Source of the DNA: Pseudacidovorax sp. RU35E
GTDB taxonomy: Bacteria; Pseudomonadota; Gammaproteobacteria; Burkholderiales; Burkholderiaceae_C
Length of the DNA: 64,000 nucleotides
Direction of reading: 5' to 3'
NCBI RefSeq assembly: GCF_900156165.1
Contig: NZ_FTMY01000010.1
Location: 124,001-188,000, forward strand
In this document: one piece after another, positions 49,800 to 64,000 of the stretch
How the letters are laid out: every line of letters begins with the position of its first letter
Position numbering within the stretch: position 1 is the first letter of the stretch
Program-made: the position numbers and the translations under genes
Notes under the pieces: generated by a model
What the model was told of the DNA's origin: nothing
The model's database searches: none
Seen by the model: the letters and a program-made list of their open reading frames with translations, nothing else

Positions 49800-50249
49800 T
49801 CAGAGCGACGGCAGGATGACGCGCGTGCTGAAGCTGCTCGCGCTGTTGGCGCCGCTGCGCGATGGCGGCGTCCAGGTGATGACGATGTCGGCTGCCGGCG
49901 GGACGCTGCCGGCGACCGCCGTCACGGTGCCGCTGCCGCTGGGCAGCCGGCTCAGCTGGGGGTTGGCGATCTTGGCCTGCCAGGCGGCGACGATGCCCGA
50001 CTCGGCGGTCACCGTGCTCAGGTCGACCGTCTTGTAGGCCCACATCTTCCCGGCGAGCTCGTCGGCCAGCAGGCTGGCGCGGCTGCGGTAATCGGCCTCC
50101 AGCGACAGCGAGATGGCCTGCGCCTGCAGGGCGACCAGACCCAGGATCGCGATCGAGAAGATCAGGATCGCGACCAGGACTTCGATCAGCGCCACGCCGC
50201 GCTGGCGCAGCGGCATGGAACGGAAGGGGCGGCGCATGGGCATCGGCAT
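49800..50249 (-). CDS. pilV: Minor pilin PilV
   Basis: This 149-residue protein has the prepilin motif QRGVALIEVLVAILIFSIAILGLVALQAQA (shown in part) with Glu at position 5 after the cleavage Gly, and the PilV-type YRSRASLLADELAGKMWAY segment. Three ATGs lie within the first five codons; the first or second is the start. It lies between fimT and pilW. Confidence 0.88.
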   Translation of the reverse strand: MPMPMRRPFRSMPLRQRGVALIEVLVAILIFSIAILGLVALQAQAISLSLEADYRSRASLLADELAGKMWAYKTVDLSTVTAESGIVAAWQAKIANPQLSRLPSGSGTVTAVAGSVPPAADIVITWTPPSRSGANSASSFSTRVILPSL

Positions 50250-50257
50250 CCCTGCGC

Positions 50258-50881
50258 TCAGCTGTAGCAGCCGTCCGGGCTGGTGGCGGCGTTGCGGGCC
50301 GGGTCGCACATGCGCACCTGGCCACTCAGGCCGACCGTCACGCGCAGCGGCCGGTCGGCCCCGGTGACGGTGATGGCGAAGGTCTGCAGCGGCGGCGTGC
50401 CGGTGGGCGCCTGGCAGGACGCGCCGGGCCCCGAACTGGCGGCGGCACCCGTGGCGCGGCCCAGGCTGCTGAAGCACACTTCGGCCGGCCCGGTGACGGC
50501 GACGCCGTCGGCCGCGCCGCTGAAGTTGCCCGTGCTGATCAGCTGCGCGGTCTCGGACGAGCCGTCCACCGGCAGCTGGTAGACGGCCCAGAACTTGCCG
50601 CCGCTCGTCGCCGAGACCGAAGCCGCGGCCGTCGTGGGCGGGCTGTTGGTGAACAGGAACACCATCGGCCGGCTGCGCCCGAGTGCTTCGGCCTGTGCGG
50701 TGCGCAGGCCGTCCTGGATGTTGTTGGCCGCGGTGCGGATGCGGCTGTTGCGGACCCAGTCGGCCATCGACGGCACGCCCACCGCCAGCAGGATGGCCAG
50801 CAGCGTGATGGTGATCATCAGCTCGACCAGCGTGAAGCCGGCCGCGCGCCGGCCTGCATGACGGGCCGCCGTCAGGGGCAT
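50258..50881 (-). CDS. fimT: GspH/FimT-family pseudopilin
   Basis: The 207-residue protein has the prepilin motif [22 protein letters not shown] (shown in part) and the FimT pattern [29 protein letters not shown]. FimT is a minor pilin and in some species binds DNA for natural uptake. It overlaps pilE by ten bases. Confidence 0.87.
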
Positions 50882-51330
50882 GTCTGGCCTCGCTTGACGA
50901 TCCAGGCCGTGCTGCAGTTCGCGCCCCAGCCGGAGGGCAGGCCCGAGGTGCTGCGGGCGCCAGCCTGGGTGACCGTGTACGTCAGGTTGCTGCCCAGGGA
51001 ACTGGCGACGGCCTGGACGGTGTAGGTGGAGGCAGTGGGCGTGCCGCTGCAGGACACCGTGAACTTGCCCGCCGTCGTGGCGGTGCTGCAGGGCGCCTTC
51101 ACCGTGGTGCTGACGTCGTTGTACTGCCGGTTGTCCTGGAAGTACCGCTCCATGTTGGCTTGCATGGCCGCCAGGGCGTTGGTGCCTTCCACCATCTGGC
51201 CGCGCAGCACGTAGTCGCGGTAACTGGGCAGCGCGATCGCGCTCAGGATCGCCACGATGGCCACCACGATCATCACCTCGATCAGGGTGAAGCCGGAAAA
51301 ACGCGGGGCAGGAACCTTCGAGCGGTGCAT
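50872..51330 (-). CDS. pilE: Minor pilin PilE
   Basis: The 152-residue protein has the prepilin motif [31 protein letters not shown] (shown in part), the [15 protein letters not shown] segment typical of minor PilE and a disulfide-type Cys pair ([14 protein letters not shown]). It heads the operon pilE-fimT-pilV-pilW-pilX-pilY1. A possible promoter lies at 51359-51388 on the minus strand. Confidence 0.88.
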
Positions 51331-53328: not shown

Positions 53329-54504
53329 ATGCACGTTCTCTCGATTTTTGGAACCCGCCCCGAGGCCATCAAGATGGCGCCCCTGGTGTCCGCACTGGCC
53401 GGGGAACCTCAACTGCGCAGCACTCTGTGCATCACCGGCCAGCACCGCGAGATGCTGGCCCAGGCCATGGACCTGTTCGACCTGAAGGCCGACCGCGACC
53501 TGGACGTGATGCAGCCGGACCAGACGCTCAACCAGCTGAGCGCACGACTCACCACCCGCATGGACGAGGTACTGCGCGAGCTGCGGCCCGACTGCGTGCT
53601 GGTGCATGGTGACACCACCACGGCCGCCGCCTGCGCCCTGGCGGCTTTCCACCTGCGCATTCCGGTCGGCCATGTGGAGGCGGGCCTGCGCAGCGGCGAC
53701 ATGAAGGCGCCGTTTCCGGAAGAGATGAACCGCCGGGTCGTGGACGTGATGAGCGAATGGATGTTCGCCCCCACGCCCTCGGCGCGCGACGCACTGCGGC
53801 GCGAGAACCTGGGCGGCCGCGCCTGGGTGACCGGCAACACCGTGATCGACGCGCTGGCCGCCGCGCTGGCCCGGCTGGATGCCGACCCGGTGCTGTCGGC
53901 CACGGTCTCCGGCCGCTACGGCTGGCTGTCCACCGACCGCCGGCTGGTGCTGGTCACCGGCCACCGGCGCGAGAACTTCGGCGAGGGCTTCCGCCAGATC
54001 TGCGCCGCCCTGCGGGAGCTCGCCCGCCGCGACGACGTCGAGGTGGTCTATCCGGTGCACATGAACCCCAACGTGCGCGGCGTCGTCATGCAGTTGCTGC
54101 ACGGCCTGCCCAATGTCCACCTGATCGAGCCGGTGGGCTACCTCGACTTCATCTGGCTGATGCGCCGCGCGCACCTGATCCTCACCGACTCCGGCGGCGT
54201 GCAGGAAGAAGCGCCCCACCTCGGCAAGCCCGTCCTGGTGATGCGTGACGTGACCGAGCGCCCCGAAGCCGTGGCCGCCGGCACGGCCCAGCTGGTGGGC
54301 ACCGCACCCGAGCGCATCCTCGGCGCCGCCCGCCGCCTGCTGGACGACCCCGACGCCTACGCGGACGTGCGCCGCCGCGGCAATCCCTACGGCGACGGCC
54401 ATGCCTGCCGCCGCATCGTCGATGCCCTGTGCGGCCGGCCCGTGGCCGAGTTCGCACCCCCGCCCCTTCAACCCGCTTCCGTTCCCAGCCTGGACTTCGC
54501 ATGA
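53329..54504 (+). CDS. wecB: UDP-N-acetylglucosamine 2-epimerase (non-hydrolysing)
   Basis: The 391-residue protein is full length with GTRPEAIKMAPLV at the start, VHGDTTTA, HVEAGLRSGDMKAPFPEEMNRR (shown in part) and TDSGGVQEEAPHLGKPVLVMRDVTERPE (shown in part), the substrate and allosteric sites of the family. It makes UDP-ManNAc from UDP-GlcNAc. The first gene of the polysaccharide operon, it should supply the donor for the NfrB-type glycosyltransferase downstream, as WecB does for the phage N4 receptor in E. coli. The ATG at 53329 is chosen to begin directly at the conserved strand. It overlaps the next gene by four bases. Confidence 0.95.
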   Translation: MHVLSIFGTRPEAIKMAPLVSALAGEPQLRSTLCITGQHREMLAQAMDLFDLKADRDLDVMQPDQTLNQLSARLTTRMDEVLRELRPDCVLVHGDTTTAAACALAAFHLRIPVGHVEAGLRSGDMKAPFPEEMNRRVVDVMSEWMFAPTPSARDALRRENLGGRAWVTGNTVIDALAAALARLDADPVLSATVSGRYGWLSTDRRLVLVTGHRRENFGEGFRQICAALRELARRDDVEVVYPVHMNPNVRGVVMQLLHGLPNVHLIEPVGYLDFIWLMRRAHLILTDSGGVQEEAPHLGKPVLVMRDVTERPEAVAAGTAQLVGTAPERILGAARRLLDDPDAYADVRRRGNPYGDGHACRRIVDALCGRPVAEFAPPPLQPASVPSLDFA

Positions 54505-56699
54505 GACTGCCCCACCGCCTCTTCCGCCCTCTTCCCCTGGTCCTGGGGATCGGCCTGCTGGCACCGATGGCCGCCGCGCTCGCGAGCCCGGCCGGTGACG
54601 CACTGCAGCGACTGCAGGGCGAGACCTGGGTCACGCGCAGCTTCACGCTGGCGGACCTCGGCATCACCCGCACCGTGCTGCTCACCGGCTTCGAGGCCAA
54701 GCAGGAGTTCTACCTGCCGGTGCCGCGCAACGTGGCCATCGCCGATGCGGGCATCGACTTCCGCGGCCGCTACTACAAGCCGGAGGAATCCCGCACCTCG
54801 ATGTCCCTGGCCATCAACGGCCGGCCGAGCTACGCCACCCGCGTGGAGGCCGCCGAGGGCGACGCCAGCCAGACGCTGAAGGTGGACGTGCGCACCATCG
54901 TCGACGGCTTCCTGCGCCTGGGCGTGAACTGGGTCAACAACTCGCCCGAGCGGATCTGTGCCTATGAGCGCCCTTCCGGCAACGTGCTGGCGGTCGAGCC
55001 CGACACCCGCTTCACCTACCGTTTCACCAGCGGCGCCCTGACCCAGCTGGCCGACGCTTGGGTGGCGCTGCCCGCACGGCCCACGATGATCGTGGCCGGC
55101 AAGCGCCTGTCCAAGGGCGCCTACGACAGCGCCTGGCGCATCGGCCTGGCAATGGAGCAGGCCGGCCGGCAGATCAACGTGCGCGCCTTCCCGGGCGTGG
55201 GCGACAGCATCGACACGCAGGGCTGGCAGATCCCGCCCGCCCTGGCCGCCCTGCCCGCCTTCTCGGGCCTGGCCGCCGGCGAGGCCCGCCACCAGATCCG
55301 CGACGCCGCCGAGGTGGGCGCGCTGATGGTGCTGGGTTCCGGTGCCGCCACCGGCGACCTGCTGGTCATGGACGCCCCCCTGCGCCAGCAGATGAACGCG
55401 GCCCTGGATGCGCTGGCCGCCCAGATGGGCGGCGACGCCGATGCCGCCCGCGCCCTGTCCGACTGGCGCGGCCGCCAGACGGCGCTGGCCGCTGACGGCA
55501 TGCCCTCGCACATGGTGCGCCTGGCCACGCTGGGCGCGCGCCCGGTGATCGTGCTGGCCGAGGACGCGGGCGCACAGGCCGCCGGTGCCTTCGCCGACGC
55601 CTGGCGCAACGTGCTGTCCGGCCGCAACGCCATCATCGACAAGGCCGACCAGGCCGAAGCCACCAGCCGCACGGTCATCCACCCGACGCAGTGGGGCGGC
55701 ACCAACCCCAACTTCGACGTGCTGGCCAAGGGCGACTGGACGGTCACCATGCCGCTGGCCGCACTGTCGGCCGACGGCCGCCTGCCCACCGACATTGCCG
55801 TCGATCTGGCCGTCTCGCCCAGCGCCGGCCGCTCAGCGCCGGTGGCCACGATCTACTGGAACGACACGCTGCTCGGTGCGCGCCGGCTCAACGCCGACGG
55901 CCATCCCGAGCGCATCGACGCCCGCGTGCCCAGCTACGTGCTGGCCCTGAACAACGTGCTGCGCGTGGCCATCCAGCGCCAGCCCTACTACGACGGCTGC
56001 AACGAGGCGCCCCAGCCCTATCCGGTCCAGGTGCTGCGCACCACCGCGCTGCGCACCGGCGACGCCAGGCCCGACGGCACCTTCGTCGGCCTCCTGCCCC
56101 TGATGGCCCACCAGCCGCAGGTGGCGGTGCCCGAGGCCTATCTGGCCGACGCCGTCGCCACGCTGCCGCGCGTGGTGCGCATCGCCGCCGCCGCGGGCGT
56201 GAGCCCCGTGCGTGCCGAATTCGTCGTGCAGGGACAGGGCGCCTTCAACCCGGCGCGTCCCTTCCTGGCGCTGCAGGTGCCGGTGGATGGCGCCGACACC
56301 CGCGTGTCGGTCAAGGACGGCCACCTGCGCATCAATGGCAAGCAGTCGCCCTGGCTGGACGTCGGCGGCCTCGCCCAGGCCAGTGCCATCGAGGTGGCCA
56401 GCAGCCACGGCCAGTACGGCCTGGTCTACCAGGTGCTGGGCACGCAGCCCGCGCTGGGCAAGCCCTTCGTGCTCAACCGCGGCGACCTGGCCGTGCTGGG
56501 CGACGAGGGCCCGGTGGCCTGGTCCGACGGCAGCGTCGCGGCCAACAGCGACACCCCGCCCGAAAGCAGCGGTTTCCTGGCCGAGTGGCGCCGCCACCTG
56601 TCGTGGGGCGTGCCCGTCATCGCCTTCGCGCTGCTGCTGTTGCTGCTGCTGTTTGTGCTGGCCCATCGCCTGAAGCGTCGCCACGACAAGAACAAGTGA
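54501..56699 (+). CDS. BcsB-like periplasmic, membrane-anchored polysaccharide synthesis protein
   Basis: The 732-residue protein has a signal peptide (about 1-28, LPLVLGIGLLAPMAAALA), a large periplasmic part with alternating carbohydrate-binding-like and flavodoxin-like modules similar to cellulose synthase regulatory subunit BcsB (GFEAKQEFYLPVPRNVAIADAGIDF; YWNDTLLGARRL; NNVLRVAIQRQPYYDGC; shown in part), and one C-terminal membrane helix (about 704-724). In cellulose synthesis BcsB guides the chain through the periplasm and activates the synthase. Here its partner would be NfrB. The ATG overlaps the wecB stop. Confidence 0.85.
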   Translation: MRLPHRLFRPLPLVLGIGLLAPMAAALASPAGDALQRLQGETWVTRSFTLADLGITRTVLLTGFEAKQEFYLPVPRNVAIADAGIDFRGRYYKPEESRTSMSLAINGRPSYATRVEAAEGDASQTLKVDVRTIVDGFLRLGVNWVNNSPERICAYERPSGNVLAVEPDTRFTYRFTSGALTQLADAWVALPARPTMIVAGKRLSKGAYDSAWRIGLAMEQAGRQINVRAFPGVGDSIDTQGWQIPPALAALPAFSGLAAGEARHQIRDAAEVGALMVLGSGAATGDLLVMDAPLRQQMNAALDALAAQMGGDADAARALSDWRGRQTALAADGMPSHMVRLATLGARPVIVLAEDAGAQAAGAFADAWRNVLSGRNAIIDKADQAEATSRTVIHPTQWGGTNPNFDVLAKGDWTVTMPLAALSADGRLPTDIAVDLAVSPSAGRSAPVATIYWNDTLLGARRLNADGHPERIDARVPSYVLALNNVLRVAIQRQPYYDGCNEAPQPYPVQVLRTTALRTGDARPDGTFVGLLPLMAHQPQVAVPEAYLADAVATLPRVVRIAAAAGVSPVRAEFVVQGQGAFNPARPFLALQVPVDGADTRVSVKDGHLRINGKQSPWLDVGGLAQASAIEVASSHGQYGLVYQVLGTQPALGKPFVLNRGDLAVLGDEGPVAWSDGSVAANSDTPPESSGFLAEWRRHLSWGVPVIAFALLLLLLLFVLAHRLKRRHDKNK

Positions 56700-56737
56700 T
56701 GACCTCCTCGCGCCTCAGGTCCTGACGGCATCCCCGC

Positions 56738-58435
56738 ATGGACTCGCTCTACTGGCCGTACCTGGCGGCCGACTACTACCACCTGCTGGAGGTGCTGACG
56801 GCGACCGTGGCGGTGCTGGTGCTGATCTCGGGCCTGGACGACCTGTTCATCGACCTCTGGTACTGGGTGCGCGAGGCCTGGCGCGCGCTCACCGTGCGCA
56901 GGCGCTATGCGCCGCTGTCGGTGGCGCAGCTGCGCGAGCGCGACGAACAGCCCATGGCCATCATGGTGCCGGCCTGGCACGAGTACGACGTGATCGCGCC
57001 CATGCTGGCCAACATGGTTTCCACGCTGGAGTACCGCGACTACGTGATCTTCGTGGGCACCTACCGCAACGACGCGCGCACCATCGAGGAGGTGGAGCGC
57101 ATGCGCCGCCGCTACCGCCACCTGGTGCGCGTGGAGGTGCCCCATGACGGTCCCACCTGCAAGGCCGACTGCCTCAACTGGGTGGTGCAGGCCGTCTTCA
57201 AGTACGAGAAGAACACCGGCCAACGCTTTGCGGGCGTGGTGCTGCACGACAGCGAGGACGTGCTCCACCCGCTGGAGCTCAAGTACTACAACTACCTGCT
57301 GCCGCGGATGGACTTCATCCAGCTGCCGGTGACCTCGCTGGAGCGCCACTGGTTCGAGCTGGTGGCCGGCACCTACATGGACGAGTTCGCCGAATGGCAC
57401 AGCAAGGACTTGGTGGTGCGCGAGAGCCTCGCCCACGTCGTGCCTTCGGCCGGTGTGGGCACCTGCTTCTCGCTGCGGGCGCTGCACACGCTGGCCGAGG
57501 CCACGCAGAACCAGCCCTTCAATGTGGACAGCCTGACCGAGGACTACGACATCGGCAACCGCCTGGGCCAGCTGGGCATGAAGCAGATCTTCGGCCGCTT
57601 CGAGGTGGACTACGTGACGCGGCGCACCTCGTGGTTCGGCCTGGGCCGCGACAAGGTGCATGCGCTGCGCATGCCGCTGGGGGTGCGCGAGTTCTTCCCC
57701 GACACCTTCCGCACCGCCTACCGCCAGAAGGCCCGCTGGACGCTGGGCATCGGCTTCCAGGGCTGGGAGCAGGTGGGCTGGCGCGGCTCGCTGGCCGCCA
57801 AGTACCTGCTCTACCGTGACCGCAAGGGACTGGTGACCTCCTTCGTCGCCATGCTGGGCTACCTGCTGGTGTTGAACTTCATGCTGTTCTTCCTGGCCTA
57901 CCAGTTCGGCTGGTTCACCGTGCACTACCCGCCGCTGCTGCATCCAGGCAGCTGGGTGGTGACGGTCATGGCCATCAACGGCCTGCTGCTCATCTGGCGC
58001 GTGCTGCAGCGGGCCTGGTTCGTGACCCACATGTATGGCTGGGAGCACGGCCTGCTGTCGGTGCCGCGCATGGTGGTGGGCAACTTCATCAACGCCGCAG
58101 CCGCGGCCCGGGCCTGGCGCCTGTTCCTGTCGCACAAGCTCCTGGGCACGCGGCTGGTGTGGGACAAGACCATGCACGACTTCCCCTCCGACGACCACCT
58201 GGTGCAGACGCGCCAGCGGCTCGGAGAGCTGCTGCTGTCCTGGCGGGCCATCGACCCCGAGCACCTGGAGACCGCGCTGCGCATGCAGGCCCAATCGCGC
58301 CGGCCGCTCGGCGCCATCCTGGTGGACAACGGCTGGCTGGACGACGCCACCCTCGACGAGGCCATCGCCTTCCAGGAAAACGACTCCCAGTTCGTGGGTC
58401 TCGAAACCCACAACCAACAGCAGGCACCCGCATGA
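56738..58435 (+). CDS. nfrB: NfrB-type membrane glycosyltransferase with MshEN-like c-di-GMP-binding tail
   Basis: This 565-residue protein has a first membrane span (14-34), a GT2-type catalytic domain with HDSED (170-174), TEDYD (267-271) and the processive-type RQKARW (329-334), several membrane spans (about 365-425), and a C-terminal segment (493-546) RLGELLLSW...LETAL and PLGAILVDNGWL that matches the MshEN pattern known to bind c-di-GMP. E. coli NfrB polymerises or transfers ManNAc-containing sugar under c-di-GMP control; this protein is shorter at the C terminus. The start has ATG 39 bases after the bcsB-like gene. Confidence 0.88.
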   Translation: MDSLYWPYLAADYYHLLEVLTATVAVLVLISGLDDLFIDLWYWVREAWRALTVRRRYAPLSVAQLRERDEQPMAIMVPAWHEYDVIAPMLANMVSTLEYRDYVIFVGTYRNDARTIEEVERMRRRYRHLVRVEVPHDGPTCKADCLNWVVQAVFKYEKNTGQRFAGVVLHDSEDVLHPLELKYYNYLLPRMDFIQLPVTSLERHWFELVAGTYMDEFAEWHSKDLVVRESLAHVVPSAGVGTCFSLRALHTLAEATQNQPFNVDSLTEDYDIGNRLGQLGMKQIFGRFEVDYVTRRTSWFGLGRDKVHALRMPLGVREFFPDTFRTAYRQKARWTLGIGFQGWEQVGWRGSLAAKYLLYRDRKGLVTSFVAMLGYLLVLNFMLFFLAYQFGWFTVHYPPLLHPGSWVVTVMAINGLLLIWRVLQRAWFVTHMYGWEHGLLSVPRMVVGNFINAAAAARAWRLFLSHKLLGTRLVWDKTMHDFPSDDHLVQTRQRLGELLLSWRAIDPEHLETALRMQAQSRRPLGAILVDNGWLDDATLDEAIAFQENDSQFVGLETHNQQQAPA

Positions 58436-61400
58436 AACCGCTGCACCGCAAAGCCACGCTGGCGATGGCCCTGGCGGCGGCCTGGCCCGTGATGCCGGCC
58501 CTGGCGTCGGTCGCGCCCCTCGCGGCAGAGACACCGGCCGGCCAGGAGGCCGGCGTCCAGCTGCGCGTCGCCATGCGGCTCGCGCTGCCCGAGACGGCCA
58601 CCGCCGGCGGCCAGCCGGCCCCCGCCCCCATGCCCGGCCCCGAGACGCCGCAGGACGCCCTGCAGCTGGCCGAGCTGCCCGGCTGGCGCCGCCGCCTGTC
58701 CGCCGACAGTCTGGCCCTGGTGCGCATGGCGCGCATCGAGCCGCGCGGCATGCCCTCTTCCGCCGACGCCGACCCGCTGATGCAGATCGGCGGCGCACCG
58801 CCGCCCGCGCCGCCGCAGGGCCCCTTCCCGCCCGGCGGGCCGGACGTGGTGCTCGGCGCCGGCAGCCGCCGGCTGCCGACCGTGCCGACCCGCCTGGACC
58901 TGGCCCAGCTGCAGGAGCCGCCGTCGCCCGATGGGCCGGCACAGTTCGTGCGGCCTGGCGAGCGCCGGACCGCCCCGGCGGCGCGCGCCCCGGGCGCCCG
59001 CGCCGGCCGCGCCGCCCGCAGTGGCAACCGCCTGCGCGGCACGGCCTGGCGCCTGGCCGCCCAGGGCTACCGTGCCTACAACCAGGGCCGCTACGACCTG
59101 GCCCTGCAGCGTGCCGATGCGGCGCTGAGGCTGCGGCCCGACGTGCCGCGCCTGCAACTGCTGCGCGTGTACACCCTCCAGAAGCTCGGCCGCCTCGACG
59201 AAGCCGAGCGCAGTGCGACCCAGGCCATCGCCCAGGGCCATGGCAGCCCCGAACTGCAGGCGGCCCTGGTCAACCTGCGCCCGGCACCCGCCGCCACGGC
59301 GGCGGACGGCACGCCCCTCACCGAGGCCTACCGGCGCGGCTTTCCGATCGCCACCCAGGCCTACACCCTCTACAACGACGGCAAGTACGCCGAGGCGGCC
59401 AGACTGGCCGAGCAGGCCGTGCGCATCGACCCGAGCCAGGGCCCCTGGACGCTGCTCTGGCTCAACGCGCTGGAAAACCAGCAGCGCTACGACGACGTGG
59501 TGCAGTACGGCAACGTGGCCATGGCCCTGGGCGCGCCCAACAAGGACGCGATCATGGCCCGCATGCGCTTGGCGCGCCAGCAGATCGCCAACGTGCATGC
59601 GCAGGCCGCCTATGCCGCCCTCAACAAGGGCCGCAACCGCGAGGCGCTGGCCGAGGCGCGCGACGCCGTGCGCATCGCGCCCGATGTCGCCAGCCACCGC
59701 ATGCTGCTGATCGGCGTGCTGCAGGCCATGCGCGACGACGCGGCGGCCGAGAAGGCCGCCACCGAGGCCCTCGCGGCCGACGACGAGAACACCGGCGTGC
59801 AGCTGCTGCGGGCCTACCTGCGCCAGTCGCTGGGCGAGACCGACGCCGCGCAGAAGGACATCGACGAGGTGCTGGCGCTGGACTGGATCACCGACGACCA
59901 GCGCCGCAATGCGCGGCTGATCGGCGCCGATCTGGCGCTGGCCGCCGACCAGCCCGAGCGCGCCCGCGCGCTGCTGGCCCCCCTGCCCGCGGACGATGCG
60001 CAGGCGCAGGAACGGCGCAAGCGCGCCAGCCGCTTCGCCGGCTGGGGCGCGGGCAGCGACAACAGCCTCACCGCCCTTGCGCCCCTCCAGCTGTGCCGCG
60101 ACACGCCCTACGGCACGGTCTGCGAACTGGCGCCCTGGGACGACCCGGGCACCGACAGCCCGGCCAGCCGCGCCTACGCCGCCTTCGGCCGGCAGGAATA
60201 CCCCAAGGCCATCGCCCTGGCCCGCCGCGCCGTGGCCGAGCAGCCCGACAGCGAGGCCAACCAGAACCTGCTGACCACCGCACTCGCCTCGGGCACGGCG
60301 CAGGAACAGCAGGAGGCCATGGACCGGCTCAACACCGCGCTGGCCGCCAAGCCGCAGGACGCGGGGCTGCTGCGCCAGCGCGCCTACCTCTACTCCAACC
60401 GCAAGGAATACGACCTGGCGCTGCAGGACTTCGTGGCGGCGCGCAGCACCGGCGAGGCGCCCGAGACCAACGTGCTCGACGAGGCCTATGCCACCGCGGG
60501 TGTCGGCAACCGACCGGCCGCCGCCGCCATGCTGCGCCAGGCCATCGACGACGCCGACGCGGGCAAGCTCGCGCTGGACAAGCAGCAGCGCTTCGACACC
60601 CGCAGCGCCATCGCCAACTTCTCGCGCGAATGGGGCGTCAATGCCTCGGTGGGCTATCGCGGTGCGCGCTCGCCGTCCAACGCGCTGGCCGGCCAGCCGG
60701 TGTCCGTGCCCGGCAATGCCACCTTCAGCACGGTGGAGGCCTACTGGCGCCCGCCCGAGTTCCTCAACAGCAGCAACCGCACCTTCGAGGTGTATGGGCG
60801 GCTGTCCAACACGCTGCAGAGCGGCAACACGGTGACGGGCGCGCAGGTGGTGGACAACCCCTGCGGCGGCACGACCAACGTGACCGAGGGCACCTTCCGC
60901 GGCGCCTCGGGCTGGCCCTCGACCACGGGCGCCATCGGCGCGCGCTACACGCCCGATGCGGGCACCAACCTCACCTTCGGCATCGAGCGGCAGTTCCTGC
61001 TGGGCACGGCCACGCGCTCGGGCGCCATCAACGCCGGCCCGGCCTCGGTGCGCTGCGCGCTCAACAGCCAGGCCGCCACCATCGACTACCAGGGCGGCAA
61101 GGCCTCGGGCGGCTGGCAGGCGTACATGCTGTATGGCTTCTACGAGGGCACCGCGCTGCGCATCGACCGCCCGAGCTGGTACACGATGGAAGGCTATGTG
61201 CAGGCCGGCTACACGCTGCTGGACCATGGCGTGGACTACACCGAACGCGACGCCAGCGGCAACACGCTGGCCACCGGCAACGGCCGCCTGCGCCGCGGCC
61301 AGGGCTTCGCGGCCGGCGAGGTGCGCGTGGGCCGCAGCTTCCTGACCTCGTACAGCGACCGGCTGGTGGTGTTCCCGCACGTCACGCTGGCGGCCGACTG

Positions 61401-61647
61401 GTATTCGACCCAGGCGCGTGTCAGTGGCGTGCCGCTGGCCGGTGCCAGCAGCTTCGCACTGGCGGGCAACGGCACGAGTTGGTCCGCGGGTGCGGGCATC
61501 GGCGTCAACCTGCGCTACTGGCTCAACGAGGACCGCTACAACGCCCAGCGCTCGCATGCCGACCTGAGCCTGCAGTACCGCGCCCGCCTGGGCGGTGACG
61601 CGGACCGGGCCAAGGGCGTGTTCATGACGCTGTCCTATTCCTATTGA
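58432..61647 (+). CDS. nfrA: NfrA-type outer-membrane polysaccharide exporter (N4 receptor-like)
   Basis: This 1071-residue protein has a signal peptide (1-25), a Pro/Ala-rich spacer to about residue 200, a long TPR-rich helical domain (YNQGRYDLALQRADAALRLRPD and later YAEAARLAEQAVRIDPSQGPW and so on, shown in part), and a C-terminal beta-barrel region of about 350 residues ending in TLSYSY, like NfrA (phage N4 adsorption protein A) C-terminal domains. NfrA exports or displays the NfrB-made glycan at the outer membrane. Its ATG overlaps the nfrB stop. Residues 60-200 are low complexity. Confidence 0.85.
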   Translation: MKPLHRKATLAMALAAAWPVMPALASVAPLAAETPAGQEAGVQLRVAMRLALPETATAGGQPAPAPMPGPETPQDALQLAELPGWRRRLSADSLALVRMARIEPRGMPSSADADPLMQIGGAPPPAPPQGPFPPGGPDVVLGAGSRRLPTVPTRLDLAQLQEPPSPDGPAQFVRPGERRTAPAARAPGARAGRAARSGNRLRGTAWRLAAQGYRAYNQGRYDLALQRADAALRLRPDVPRLQLLRVYTLQKLGRLDEAERSATQAIAQGHGSPELQAALVNLRPAPAATAADGTPLTEAYRRGFPIATQAYTLYNDGKYAEAARLAEQAVRIDPSQGPWTLLWLNALENQQRYDDVVQYGNVAMALGAPNKDAIMARMRLARQQIANVHAQAAYAALNKGRNREALAEARDAVRIAPDVASHRMLLIGVLQAMRDDAAAEKAATEALAADDENTGVQLLRAYLRQSLGETDAAQKDIDEVLALDWITDDQRRNARLIGADLALAADQPERARALLAPLPADDAQAQERRKRASRFAGWGAGSDNSLTALAPLQLCRDTPYGTVCELAPWDDPGTDSPASRAYAAFGRQEYPKAIALARRAVAEQPDSEANQNLLTTALASGTAQEQQEAMDRLNTALAAKPQDAGLLRQRAYLYSNRKEYDLALQDFVAARSTGEAPETNVLDEAYATAGVGNRPAAAAMLRQAIDDADAGKLALDKQQRFDTRSAIANFSREWGVNASVGYRGARSPSNALAGQPVSVPGNATFSTVEAYWRPPEFLNSSNRTFEVYGRLSNTLQSGNTVTGAQVVDNPCGGTTNVTEGTFRGASGWPSTTGAIGARYTPDAGTNLTFGIERQFLLGTATRSGAINAGPASVRCALNSQAATIDYQGGKASGGWQAYMLYGFYEGTALRIDRPSWYTMEGYVQAGYTLLDHGVDYTERDASGNTLATGNGRLRRGQGFAAGEVRVGRSFLTSYSDRLVVFPHVTLAADWYSTQARVSGVPLAGASSFALAGNGTSWSAGAGIGVNLRYWLNEDRYNAQRSHADLSLQYRARLGGDADRAKGVFMTLSYSY

Positions 61648-61716
61648 TTCCTGCGGGCGTGCGGCCGCGCCGCCGCACGCCTCGCGACGACGCACACGAA
61701 CGAGGGGTTTGCATCC

Positions 61717-62703
61717 ATGACCGACGACCGCACCGAAGGCGGCCTGCGCCGCCGCCACCTGCTGGGCCTGCCGATGGGCCTGGCCCTGGCGGGCCTGGCG
61801 CGCGCCCAACCCGACACGCTGGCCTTCGTGGGCCAGGACAACTTCATCTTCGCGGCCTGGGACAGCCTGGCCACGCCCGAATGGAAAGGCATCGACGCCA
61901 CCGTGGCCCGTGTGGCGCAGGTGAGCCAGCTGCTCGCGGCCAAGGGCGTGGCCCTGGTCGTGCCGGTGCTGCCCGACAAGATGCGCATCTATGCGGAGAA
62001 GCTGCCCGCGGACAAACCGATGTCGCCCGAGATGCGGCAGCGCTACGCCGGCATCCTCTCGCGCCTTCAGGCGGCCGGCGTGGCCACCTTCGACGACGAG
62101 AAGCTGCTGATGGGGCTCAAGGCCGCCGGCCAGAACGTCTACTACCGCACCGACCAGCACTGGACCCAGCCAGCGGCCGATGCCACCGCGCAGGCCACGG
62201 CCGACCTGATCCGCCAGAAGGTGCCCAACCTGGCCGGCCAGCCGGGCACCGGCATGGCGCTGGGACCGCTGATCAACGAGCGGCGCTATGGGGATCTGGC
62301 CGACCGCTTCCTGTCGCCCGAGCAACGCCGCTCGGTCGGCCGCGAGATCTATTCGGTGCGCCGCGCGGGCGATGGCGAAAGCCTGCTGGCCGATGCGCCC
62401 GCCCCGGTGCACGTCACCGGCAACAGCATGGTTCAGCCCTATTTCGGCTTTCCGCAGAAGCTGTCGAACGTGCTCGACCGGCCCGTGTCGGTCAACTGGA
62501 AGCCGGGCGACGTGGGCTTCTGGCGCGTGCTCATCGAGTATGTGGAATCGAACGCCTTCCGCCAGCAGAAGCCGCAGGCGCTGGTGTGGCAGCTGTTCGA
62601 GCCCAACTTCCACCTGGGTCCGGATGCCCGCGGGCTGTGGGACAGCGCCTCGGTGATGGCTGCCGAGGAGTGGCAGCGCCGCATCCAGGCCGCGCTGGCG
62701 TGA
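61717..62703 (+). CDS. AlgX/AlgJ-like SGNH-type O-acetyltransferase, periplasmic
   Basis: This 328-residue protein has an N-terminal signal with twin-Arg-like RRRHLLGLPMGLALAGLARA, the DxHW-type catalytic motif YRTDQHW near residue 147 and a Ser-containing VTGNSMVQ near residue 230, the arrangement of AlgX/AlgJ enzymes that place acetyl groups on alginate-like polymers. The N in GNS, where GDS or GTS is usual, is noted. It probably acts with the next gene and AlgI on the polymer made upstream. Confidence 0.82.
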   Translation: MTDDRTEGGLRRRHLLGLPMGLALAGLARAQPDTLAFVGQDNFIFAAWDSLATPEWKGIDATVARVAQVSQLLAAKGVALVVPVLPDKMRIYAEKLPADKPMSPEMRQRYAGILSRLQAAGVATFDDEKLLMGLKAAGQNVYYRTDQHWTQPAADATAQATADLIRQKVPNLAGQPGTGMALGPLINERRYGDLADRFLSPEQRRSVGREIYSVRRAGDGESLLADAPAPVHVTGNSMVQPYFGFPQKLSNVLDRPVSVNWKPGDVGFWRVLIEYVESNAFRQQKPQALVWQLFEPNFHLGPDARGLWDSASVMAAEEWQRRIQAALA

Positions 62704-63815
62704 GCGTGGCTGCGCCGCCGGCGCCCAAGCCCGCAGCCGCGCCCACGCCGCCCGACCGCCGGCACATCCCGTTCGCGCTCGTCATCGGCGTGCTGCTCGC
62801 CGCCGGCCTGCTCTGGGGCGGCTGGCGCCTGGCCACCGCCGACCGCGGCGCCTGGCAACAGGCGGGTGCCGAGGCCGCCATGAACCGCACCCTCGGTGCC
62901 CTGCCCGGCCAGTCCGGCTGGACGCGCTGGGGCGCCGGGCTGCGCTGGCGCCTGCTGGGCGACCTGGGCCCGCAGGTGGCCGAGGGCTGCCCCGGCTGGC
63001 TCTTCTACCGCGACGGCCTGCGGCCGGCCGCCGGCGAGGCCGTCGCGGCGGCGGCCTATGCGCGCCGCCTCGCCCTCATGCGGCACTGGGCCCAGCGGCT
63101 GCGAGCGCATGGCGTGCAGCTGGTGGTGGCCACGGTGCCTGACAAGTCCCGCATCGAGGCCGCGCATCTGTGCGGCCTGCCGGTTTCGGCCACGATGCAG
63201 GCACGTCTGGACGACTGGCAGCAGCGCCTGGCTGCGGCCGGCGTGCGGCACGTCGACCTTCGCCCCGCCTTGACTGACCTGCCCCAGCCCTATTACCGGA
63301 CCGATGTGCACATGGCACCGGAAGGCGCCGAAGCCGCGGCCGCCGCCATCGGCCGCACGGCGCTGCCCTTGCTGGGCGGCCCCGGCGGCCAGCGCTTCGA
63401 CGATCAGCGCGGCGCGGCGCCCGAGCCGCGCATGGGCGACCTGATCGTGCTGGCCGGCCTGGAGCACCTGCCCGAAGGCTGGCGCCCGTCGCTGGAGTCG
63501 TTCGTCCCCGAGCGCATCGTGCCCGTGGCCAGCGGCGGCCTGCTGGATGCCGGTCCGCCGGCCGAGGTGCTGCTGGTGGGCGATTCCAACGGCCTGCGCA
63601 GCGAATTCCCTGGCCGCCTGGGCCGGCAGCTCGGCCGCGAGGTCTGGACCCTCAGCCACGACGGCGGCTATTTCTCGGGCGCCATGCTGGCCGCCCTGGC
63701 GCAGCAGGACCGCTGGCCCGCCAGCCTCAAGCTCGTCGTGTGGACCTTCTCCGAACTCTCGCTCTCGCTGCCCCTGAGCGCCGACGAGGCGCGTGCCGCC
63801 GCCGCCCTGCCCTGA
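62700..63815 (+). CDS. Second AlgX/AlgJ-like O-acetyltransferase, membrane-anchored
   Basis: This 371-residue protein has one N-terminal membrane anchor (about 24-45, FALVIGVLLAAGLLWGGW), a central GWLFYRDGL segment usual in AlgX/AlgJ families, YRTDVHMAPEG with the DxH pair near residue 202, and VGDSNGLRSEF with the catalytic Ser near residue 298. Start is GTG at 62700 overlapping the previous stop (GTGA). It would receive acetyl groups from the AlgI-type channel encoded next. Confidence 0.83.
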   Translation: MSVAAPPAPKPAAAPTPPDRRHIPFALVIGVLLAAGLLWGGWRLATADRGAWQQAGAEAAMNRTLGALPGQSGWTRWGAGLRWRLLGDLGPQVAEGCPGWLFYRDGLRPAAGEAVAAAAYARRLALMRHWAQRLRAHGVQLVVATVPDKSRIEAAHLCGLPVSATMQARLDDWQQRLAAAGVRHVDLRPALTDLPQPYYRTDVHMAPEGAEAAAAAIGRTALPLLGGPGGQRFDDQRGAAPEPRMGDLIVLAGLEHLPEGWRPSLESFVPERIVPVASGGLLDAGPPAEVLLVGDSNGLRSEFPGRLGRQLGREVWTLSHDGGYFSGAMLAALAQQDRWPASLKLVVWTFSELSLSLPLSADEARAAAALP

Positions 63816-63827
63816 GGCCCGACGCGC

Positions 63828-64000
63828 ATGCTGTTCAACTCTTACCTCTTCCTGTTCCTGTTCCTGCCGGTGGCGCTGGGTGGCTACTACGCCCTGGCTG
63901 CGGCCGGCAGGCGCTGGGCGGCGCTGTGGCTGTGCCTGACGTCCTTCGTCTTCTATGGCTGGTGGAACCCGCGCTTCGTGGTGCTGCTGGCCGGCTCGAT
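63828..64000 (+). CDS. algI: AlgI-like MBOAT O-acetyltransferase (N-terminal part)
   Basis: Only the first 57 codons are in the window. The start MLFNSYLFLFLFLPVALGGYYAL is the usual beginning of AlgI/MBOAT membrane proteins (shown in part), and FVFYGWWNPRFVVLL agrees. AlgI moves acetyl groups from the cytoplasm across the membrane to AlgJ/AlgX. Its position 12 bases after the AlgX/AlgJ-like gene makes it part of the operon. Confidence 0.9.
   Translation, partial: MLFNSYLFLFLFLPVALGGYYALAAAGRRWAALWLCLTSFVFYGWWNPRFVVLLAGS

Follow-up and report, generated by a model that had tools for sequence, protein, structure and literature searches.

The window analysed here is a stretch of 64,000 nucleotides from Pseudacidovorax sp. 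RU35E (contig NZ_FTMY01000010.1, positions 124,001 to 188,000; G000:C4:124001-188000), and its end cuts through an Nfr-type exopolysaccharide operon that starts with wecB at position 53329; coordinates beyond 64000 are those of the sequence extended past the window end. Judging from the genes of this locus and their relatives, it probably makes an exopolysaccharide that is switched by cyclic di-GMP (c-di-GMP) and decorated through a hybrid of the alginate-type (Alg) and Dlt routes with an aminoacyl ester, most likely of D-alanine. The initial annotation had proposed a self-contained Nfr-type operon with its own wecB, a BcsB-like partner and a polymer-acylation module, and gene content supports this, but it had taken the decoration to be acetylation. 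That assignment is probably wrong here and in most related loci, because a dedicated adenylation enzyme and a carrier accompany the acylation genes.

The acylation module straddles the window end. Two AlgX/AlgJ-like SGNH acyltransferases are encoded on the plus strand at 61717-62703 (PF16822 (ALGX), 205.5 bits; motifs DQHW and GNS) and, from a GTG start, at 62700-63815 (PF16822 (ALGX), 210.5 bits; motifs DVHM and GDS). They are followed on the same strand by algI, which encodes an MBOAT acyltransferase (63828-65411; MBOAT, 71.1 bits) and has 173 bases (63828-64000) inside the window, and by algF (65411-66097; AlgF, 69 bits), which overlaps algI by one base. The Alg-type set is present, with AlgI, AlgX/J proteins carrying the D-x-H and Ser motifs, and AlgF. 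Tail-to-tail with algF lies a minus-strand set comprising a DltA-like adenylation enzyme (A-domain; 66087-67526, profile matches), which overlaps algF by 11 nucleotides, a DltC-like carrier (67547-67789; PF00550, 31.8 bits) and an acyl-CoA-dehydrogenase-like protein (67831-69003, profile matches). The carrier retains the phosphopantetheine serine and scores 39.3 bits on the dltC model, below the cut-off of 52.35.

We compared this arrangement across 94 nfrB loci. Besides the window (L006), these comprise 11 loci contributed by 10 genomes out of 150 in the family, the 80 contig matches that ranked best among 431 confirmed ones, and two reached via an A-domain search; L020/L038 and L062/L124 are pairs of identical sequence. 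A carrier module accompanies algI in 59 of the 62 loci that have algI and readable surroundings, ten end-cut loci being left out of this denominator; 53 of these modules consist of a DltA-like enzyme plus carrier and 6 of FkbH plus carrier. By class, 40 loci encode the carrier and A-domain on the strand of algI, 13 are convergent (the window and the Simplicispira hankyongi locus L043 among them) and 6 are of the FkbH type (FkbH match 314.4 bits, cut-off 146.65). FkbH proteins load glyceryl-type groups onto carriers. The remaining loci are three with Alg genes and no carrier, judged only inside their own stretches, 22 whose stretch lacks algI (algX- or algF-like genes are nonetheless seen in L027 and L083) and ten truncated at the end of a contig or stretch. 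In many loci of Achromobacter, Pandoraea and Pseudomonas, the operon itself includes the carrier and adenylation genes; the larger clade of 33 in-operon loci has the order algI-carrier-A-domain-algF, with spacings of 14-45 nucleotides from algI to the carrier, 20-72 from the carrier to the A-domain and, in 32 of the 33, -4 to +5 from the A-domain to algF. Odd spacings in this clade are -44, 169, 587 and -520 in L050, L080, L022 and L090, respectively. Seven Paraburkholderia, Ralstonia and Trinickia loci place algF before the carrier/A-domain module.

The AlgI protein itself differs with the presence of a carrier. According to PMC11035591, the docking site for DltC on DltB is a cytoplasmic helix that lies between the two active histidines. 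An alignment of 32 AlgI proteins shows no variation at the matching histidines, identified by motif. Between them, each of the 59 carrier-linked nfr AlgI has a long PxAM-type loop, and the distance to WHG is 55 residues in all 58 measurable cases; the three carrier-less nfr AlgI all have a short LGGxR loop, with 35 residues to WHG. Of 300 genomes from the order that were searched for AlgI, 87 were positive. Four of the matches were nfr loci, all with the long loop, and 31 further AlgI loci were read as a non-nfr control; no nfr gene lies in any of their stretches, and 26 of the genomes that hold them have no NfrB at E <= 1e-60. The short LGGx[R/K] loop is present in 29 of the 31, and for 28 of these 29 no carrier was found within the stretch by a carrier profile, which recovered 6/6 carriers held out from it; several control stretches (such as L162, L182, L183 and L186) are cut on one side, and L182 is split by a stop, its loop being read in L151. 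The other two control AlgI have the long loop. One of them, L159 (8.7-14.1 kb; the same locus as L138, its long loop assigned by hand reading after the first loop pattern missed it), lies in a sugar cluster that has no nfr genes, next to FkbH (568 bits) and a carrier (83 bits). A PF00550 search in 34 genomes gave no match closer than 5992 bases to any non-nfr AlgI, and so none inside 5 kb, a weak negative as the search missed the L159 carrier. Because the loop differs exactly where DltB docks DltC, we predict that the window AlgI is carrier-fed, and by analogy with the corresponding DltB helix we infer that the long loop serves as a carrier-docking site; L159 suggests that the carrier-fed type of AlgI may extend beyond the nfr loci. 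This link, taken with the carrier modules themselves, makes it most likely that the polymer is esterified with an amino acid. Furthermore, the C-terminal acyl-shuttle motif described in PMC12148441 is present in 63 of 64 AlgI, as FLYFQF at the C-terminus of the window AlgI. With a dltB model score of 164.9 against a cut-off of 375, this AlgI is not a member of the DltB family proper.

Nfr clusters with Alg-type genes were already known from two mBio papers. Sellner 2021 (PMC8669472) describes nfrA, nfrB and wecB of Achromobacter xylosoxidans clustered with a BcsB homologue and O-acetyltransferase homologues, and treats N-acetylmannosamine (ManNAc) in the Nfr polymer as a postulate; Junkermeier and Hengge 2021 (PMC8669469) describe an alginate-acetyltransferase-like cluster inside the Simplicispira suum nfr locus and report that wecB adjoins nfrB in species where it is the only wecB. 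The joining of nfr genes to a BcsB homologue and to acetyltransferase genes of the alginate type can thus no longer be called undescribed. These clusters share the backbone and the Alg-type genes with the window, and that of A. xylosoxidans also shares the BcsB homologue. What appears to be new, on sequence grounds, is the carrier-fed, Dlt-like acyl supply attached to an Alg-type module: the two papers interpret the Alg-type genes as acetylation, whereas we propose carrier-fed acylation. The searched text of PMC8669472 contains no mention of carrier, alanine, adenylation, ligase or acyltransferase, and that of PMC8669469 no word starting with "acyl" (figures and supplements lie outside this scope); acyl source, carrier, adenylation and FkbH genes go unmentioned in the searched text of both. 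Likewise, no description of carrier-fed exopolysaccharide acylation occurs in the titles and abstract openings surveyed, which covered open-licence papers.

Plain O-acetylation as proposed in 2021, with AlgI using acetyl-CoA, AlgX and AlgF acetylating the polymer and the A-domain and carrier genes serving another purpose, is in our judgement unlikely. It draws on the identity of AlgX, AlgI and AlgF as the alginate acetylation set, on the interpretation given in both papers, and on the three nfr loci in which Alg genes with an ordinary LGGxR AlgI occur with no carrier seen in the stretch. However, it leaves unaccounted for the carrier module in nearly all readable loci, tightly spaced in many, the difference between carrier-linked and carrier-less AlgI in exactly the loop that docks the carrier in DltB, and the occupation of the same place by two unrelated carrier-loading enzymes, DltA-like and FkbH. 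O-acetylation of alginate (AlgI, J, F, X) and cellulose (WssFGHI) has AlgI, two AlgX/J proteins and AlgF in common with the window, and is said in PMC12148441 to use acyl-CoA and no carrier; the window locus differs in its AlgI loop type and in its carrier module. Set against the pattern derived from the 31-locus control for Alg acetylation, no adjacent carrier plus a short LGGxR loop, the window locus falls outside. The Dlt D-alanylation of teichoic acids (DltA, B, C, D, X) shares the DltA-like enzyme, the DltC-like carrier, an MBOAT, an SGNH protein and a C-terminal shuttle motif; in the window, by contrast, the MBOAT is AlgI-type with a fused shuttle motif, two AlgX proteins and AlgF are present, and the predicted target is a Gram-negative exopolysaccharide. 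The module resembles Alg on the periplasmic side, and we class it neither as an acetylation nor as a Dlt system.

The identity of the amino acid was approached through the A-domain. Against the PDB, DltA is nearest to the A-domain set by single domain (3e7w, 399.5 bits); gramicidin synthetase exceeds it in total only via two domains, the best single one scoring 235. According to PMC8972799 and PMC4176424, the amino group is bound by Asp197 in B. cereus DltA, and the preference for D- over L-alanine comes from Cys269. When the window enzyme is aligned through L121 and 3dhv, the equivalents are Asp179 and Cys251, and because both are kept, D-alanine is the most likely substrate predicted for it. 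The selectivity Cys is kept in 13/13 convergent, 7/7 Paraburkholderia-type and 6/6 other-locus enzymes. It is replaced by Gly in all 33 of the Achromobacter/Pandoraea/Pseudomonas-type enzymes, which form their own clade, and since the Cys is lost these perhaps use another amino acid.

The convergent loci add a further gene. The dehydrogenase homologue, which has a conserved RDAH...VMVNDDRI stretch in these loci, follows the carrier and A-domain in 12 of the 13; the 13th (L037) ends before it, and the gene is often end-cut. It was seen in no nfr locus of the other types among the 94 annotated. In antibiotic biosynthesis, prolyl pathways convert proline to a pyrrole-2-carboxyl group through adenylation, a carrier and a dehydrogenase. 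The distribution of the homologue fits a carrier-fed route with a processed acyl group, in which it would oxidise the carrier-bound amino acid before transfer. We regard this as quite improbable, for the homologue scores higher with FadE16-type proteins than with prolyl-carrier dehydrogenase (126.1 versus 52.6 bits), and the window A-domain, in which the D-alanine Cys is kept, is far nearer to DltA than to prolyl ligases (289.8 versus 166.1 bits). Pyrrole-carboxylate itself, an idea weakened by the DltA-like A-domain, the kept Cys and the FadE16-type score, survives only as part of that processed-acyl alternative.

Dlt-like genes also occur apart from nfr loci. An A-domain search of the order was positive at E <= 1e-90 in 9 of 399 genomes, the Pseudacidovorax genome included. 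Two genomes of one genus carry stand-alone loci (L121 and L122, about 9.2-13.7 kb) with a carrier, DltD (194.7 and 197.2 bits), a DltB-like MBOAT and a DltA-like enzyme whose A-domains are 56-57% identical to that of the window. Their MBOATs read WNG where AlgI proteins have WHG, and one of the two genomes holds an nfr-linked set as well. The Bordetella dra locus, a Gram-negative Dlt-like system as is the window's, reportedly places D-alanine on an outer-membrane component; L121 and L122, with their own DltB-like MBOAT and DltD, are possible relatives of it, and our guess is that they are the dra locus. A/carrier pairs lie within other clusters in L125-L128. In L126-L128, from small genomes, a DltA-like gene and a carrier stand beside sugar-nucleotide genes, followed in L126 by a hexapeptide-transferase gene, and no AlgI-type match was found in these three stretches. 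That the nfr-linked A/carrier pair likewise loads an amino acid for some other envelope target, as in dra, and merely adjoins the exopolysaccharide genes is very doubtful to us. The 57% identity to the stand-alone type and the G285 genome, which carries both a stand-alone Dlt-like set and an nfr-linked one, speak for it. Stand-alone loci, however, own a DltB-like MBOAT and DltD, whereas no MBOAT but AlgI was found with the nfr-linked pairs, and in Ideonella L037 the block algX-algX-algI-algF/A-domain/carrier is inverted as one unit with the identical 11-nucleotide overlap retained.

Several observations nevertheless weigh against decoration of the polymer by the hybrid route with D-alanine. 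Two methyl-pocket residues of DltA are changed (FDLSVM in DltA, FDVSLY in the window enzyme), the dehydrogenase homologue of the convergent clade would be superfluous in a simple D-alanylation scheme, and the A-domain and carrier genes of the window clade are convergent and not co-transcribed with algI. Among the control loci, FkbH and a carrier lie at distances of about 4 and about 6 kb from the short-loop AlgI of L165, and for the long-loop AlgI of L160 (48 residues) the carrier profile found no carrier; its neighbours include parts that by eye resemble polyketide synthases and non-ribosomal peptide synthetases, with an AMP-binding match of 100 bits. Loop type and donor follow phylogeny and so are not independent observations. 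The structure model of AlgI was poor (predicted local distance difference test, pLDDT, of 63) and was not used, which leaves the docking loop, like aminoacylation as a whole, a proposal drawn from genes and sequence.

The acylation cassette appears to move between nfr backbones. When the in-operon, convergent, FkbH and carrier-less classes are mapped over 60 shared loci, 3 changes, the fewest possible, suffice on the AlgI tree (built without L006, L044 and L050), against 7 on the NfrB tree, a quick tree with some long branches. FkbH-type and A-domain-type loci of Pandoraea are intermixed on the NfrB tree. An earlier contrast of 5 (AlgI) versus 24 (NfrB) changes was dropped, having included loci without algI and cut loci. 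Cassette exchange is supported by these trees, less strongly than the first contrast implied. There is, we estimate, about an even chance that beta- and gamma-proteobacterial Nfr exopolysaccharides are served by exchangeable carrier-fed cassettes: D-alanyl in the window clade and the Paraburkholderia type, another amino acid where Cys has become Gly, and an FkbH-loaded group, for example glyceryl, in some Pandoraea. Such exchange would be enabled by a loop-bearing AlgI that also occurs outside Nfr loci (L159), and would re-dress a polymer that N4-like phages may recognise. Pandoraea NfrA reading frames are about 750 residues long in FkbH-type loci and at least 900 in A-domain-type loci, which hints at an exporter matched to the decoration.

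The seven genes from wecB to algI lie where the initial annotation placed them, in one direction, with short gaps or overlaps of -4, +38, -4, +69, -4 and +12 nucleotides. On the plus strand, wecB (53329-54504) encodes a non-hydrolysing UDP-GlcNAc 2-epimerase with UDP-ManNAc as its product (TIGR00236, 472.5 bits, cut-off 210; motifs GTRPE and DSGG.QEE). The bcsB-like gene (54501-56699) encodes a periplasmic protein with a helix at its C-terminus, nfrB (56738-58435) a family 2 glycosyltransferase with a C-terminal c-di-GMP-binding MshE-type domain (PRK15489, 939.7 bits; NF053729, 54.7 bits, cut-off 38) and the motifs DSED, TED and QxxRW, and nfrA (58432-61647) a TPR and outer-membrane export protein (NfrA_C, 80.7 bits; TPR matches). 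An Nfr-type system is thereby present, with NfrB bearing its motifs and c-di-GMP domain, the NfrA exporter and the WecB epimerase. The NfrA/NfrB/WecB system of E. coli, which makes the NGR glycan used as phage N4 receptor, has these three components in common; YbcH is found there, according to PMC8669469, and the window operon instead contains wecB, the BcsB-fold gene and a trailing acylation module. Upstream of the operon, three open reading frames on the minus strand (49800-51330) have N-termini that, by motif, look type IV prepilin-like.

The Pfam BcsB match of the 54501-56699 protein is weak (26.7 bits over residues 46-181, cut-off 21). We therefore turned to a structure model, built with AlphaFold2 from 43 aligned sequences (pLDDT 82.3, predicted TM-score 0.78). 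In a Foldseek search of the PDB, the top 22 matches were all BcsB-containing chains, the best with an E-value of 2.2e-24 and a TM-score of 0.52, at 9-15% identity. The model thus indicates that the protein has the BcsB fold, and the BcsB-like label given earlier was correct despite the low Pfam score.

Among 150 family genomes, 11 have NfrB (E <= 1e-60), the window's own included, and the window NfrB is 97-98% identical to that of three Pseudacidovorax genomes (L031-L033). Co-conservation of the BcsB-like and Alg genes with nfrAB in other genomes was borne out: a bcsB-like gene was called in 90 of the 94 nfrB loci, two of the four misses (L123 and L124) being merely cut at the stretch end, and algI with readable surroundings is present in 62. 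nfrA was called in 91 and wecB in 80 of the 94, several misses reflecting stretch ends or broken genes. In L050, L051, L055, L057, L064, L072, L078 and L089, wecB, bcsB-like, nfrA, algI or algX is split or partial, through decay or sequencing error; genes split over frames, as in all of these but L072, were used as single pieces only.

From the observed gene content, order, conservation, BcsB fold, motifs and link between AlgI loop and carrier module, we infer every enzymatic step of the following route, together with its sugar, amino acid and ester. WecB would supply UDP-ManNAc, whose sugar NfrB would polymerise at the inner membrane once its C-terminal domain has bound c-di-GMP; guided across the periplasm by the BcsB-fold protein, the chain would be exported by NfrA. 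In the cytoplasm, the DltA-like enzyme would activate a small amino acid, most likely D-alanine, and load it onto the DltC-like carrier, which would dock at the enlarged AlgI loop. AlgI would then pass the aminoacyl group on to the tyrosine in the FLYFQF motif at its C-terminus, from where the AlgX-type proteins and AlgF would hand it to the polymer as an ester. The carrier-linked nfr loci look exceptional, with a sequence signature of their own, and if this route operates, three donor types on one backbone would form a comparative set for donor choice by MBOAT proteins. A Gram-negative biofilm polymer would then be aminoacylated, which would add positive charge, alter the matrix and possibly alter phage docking.

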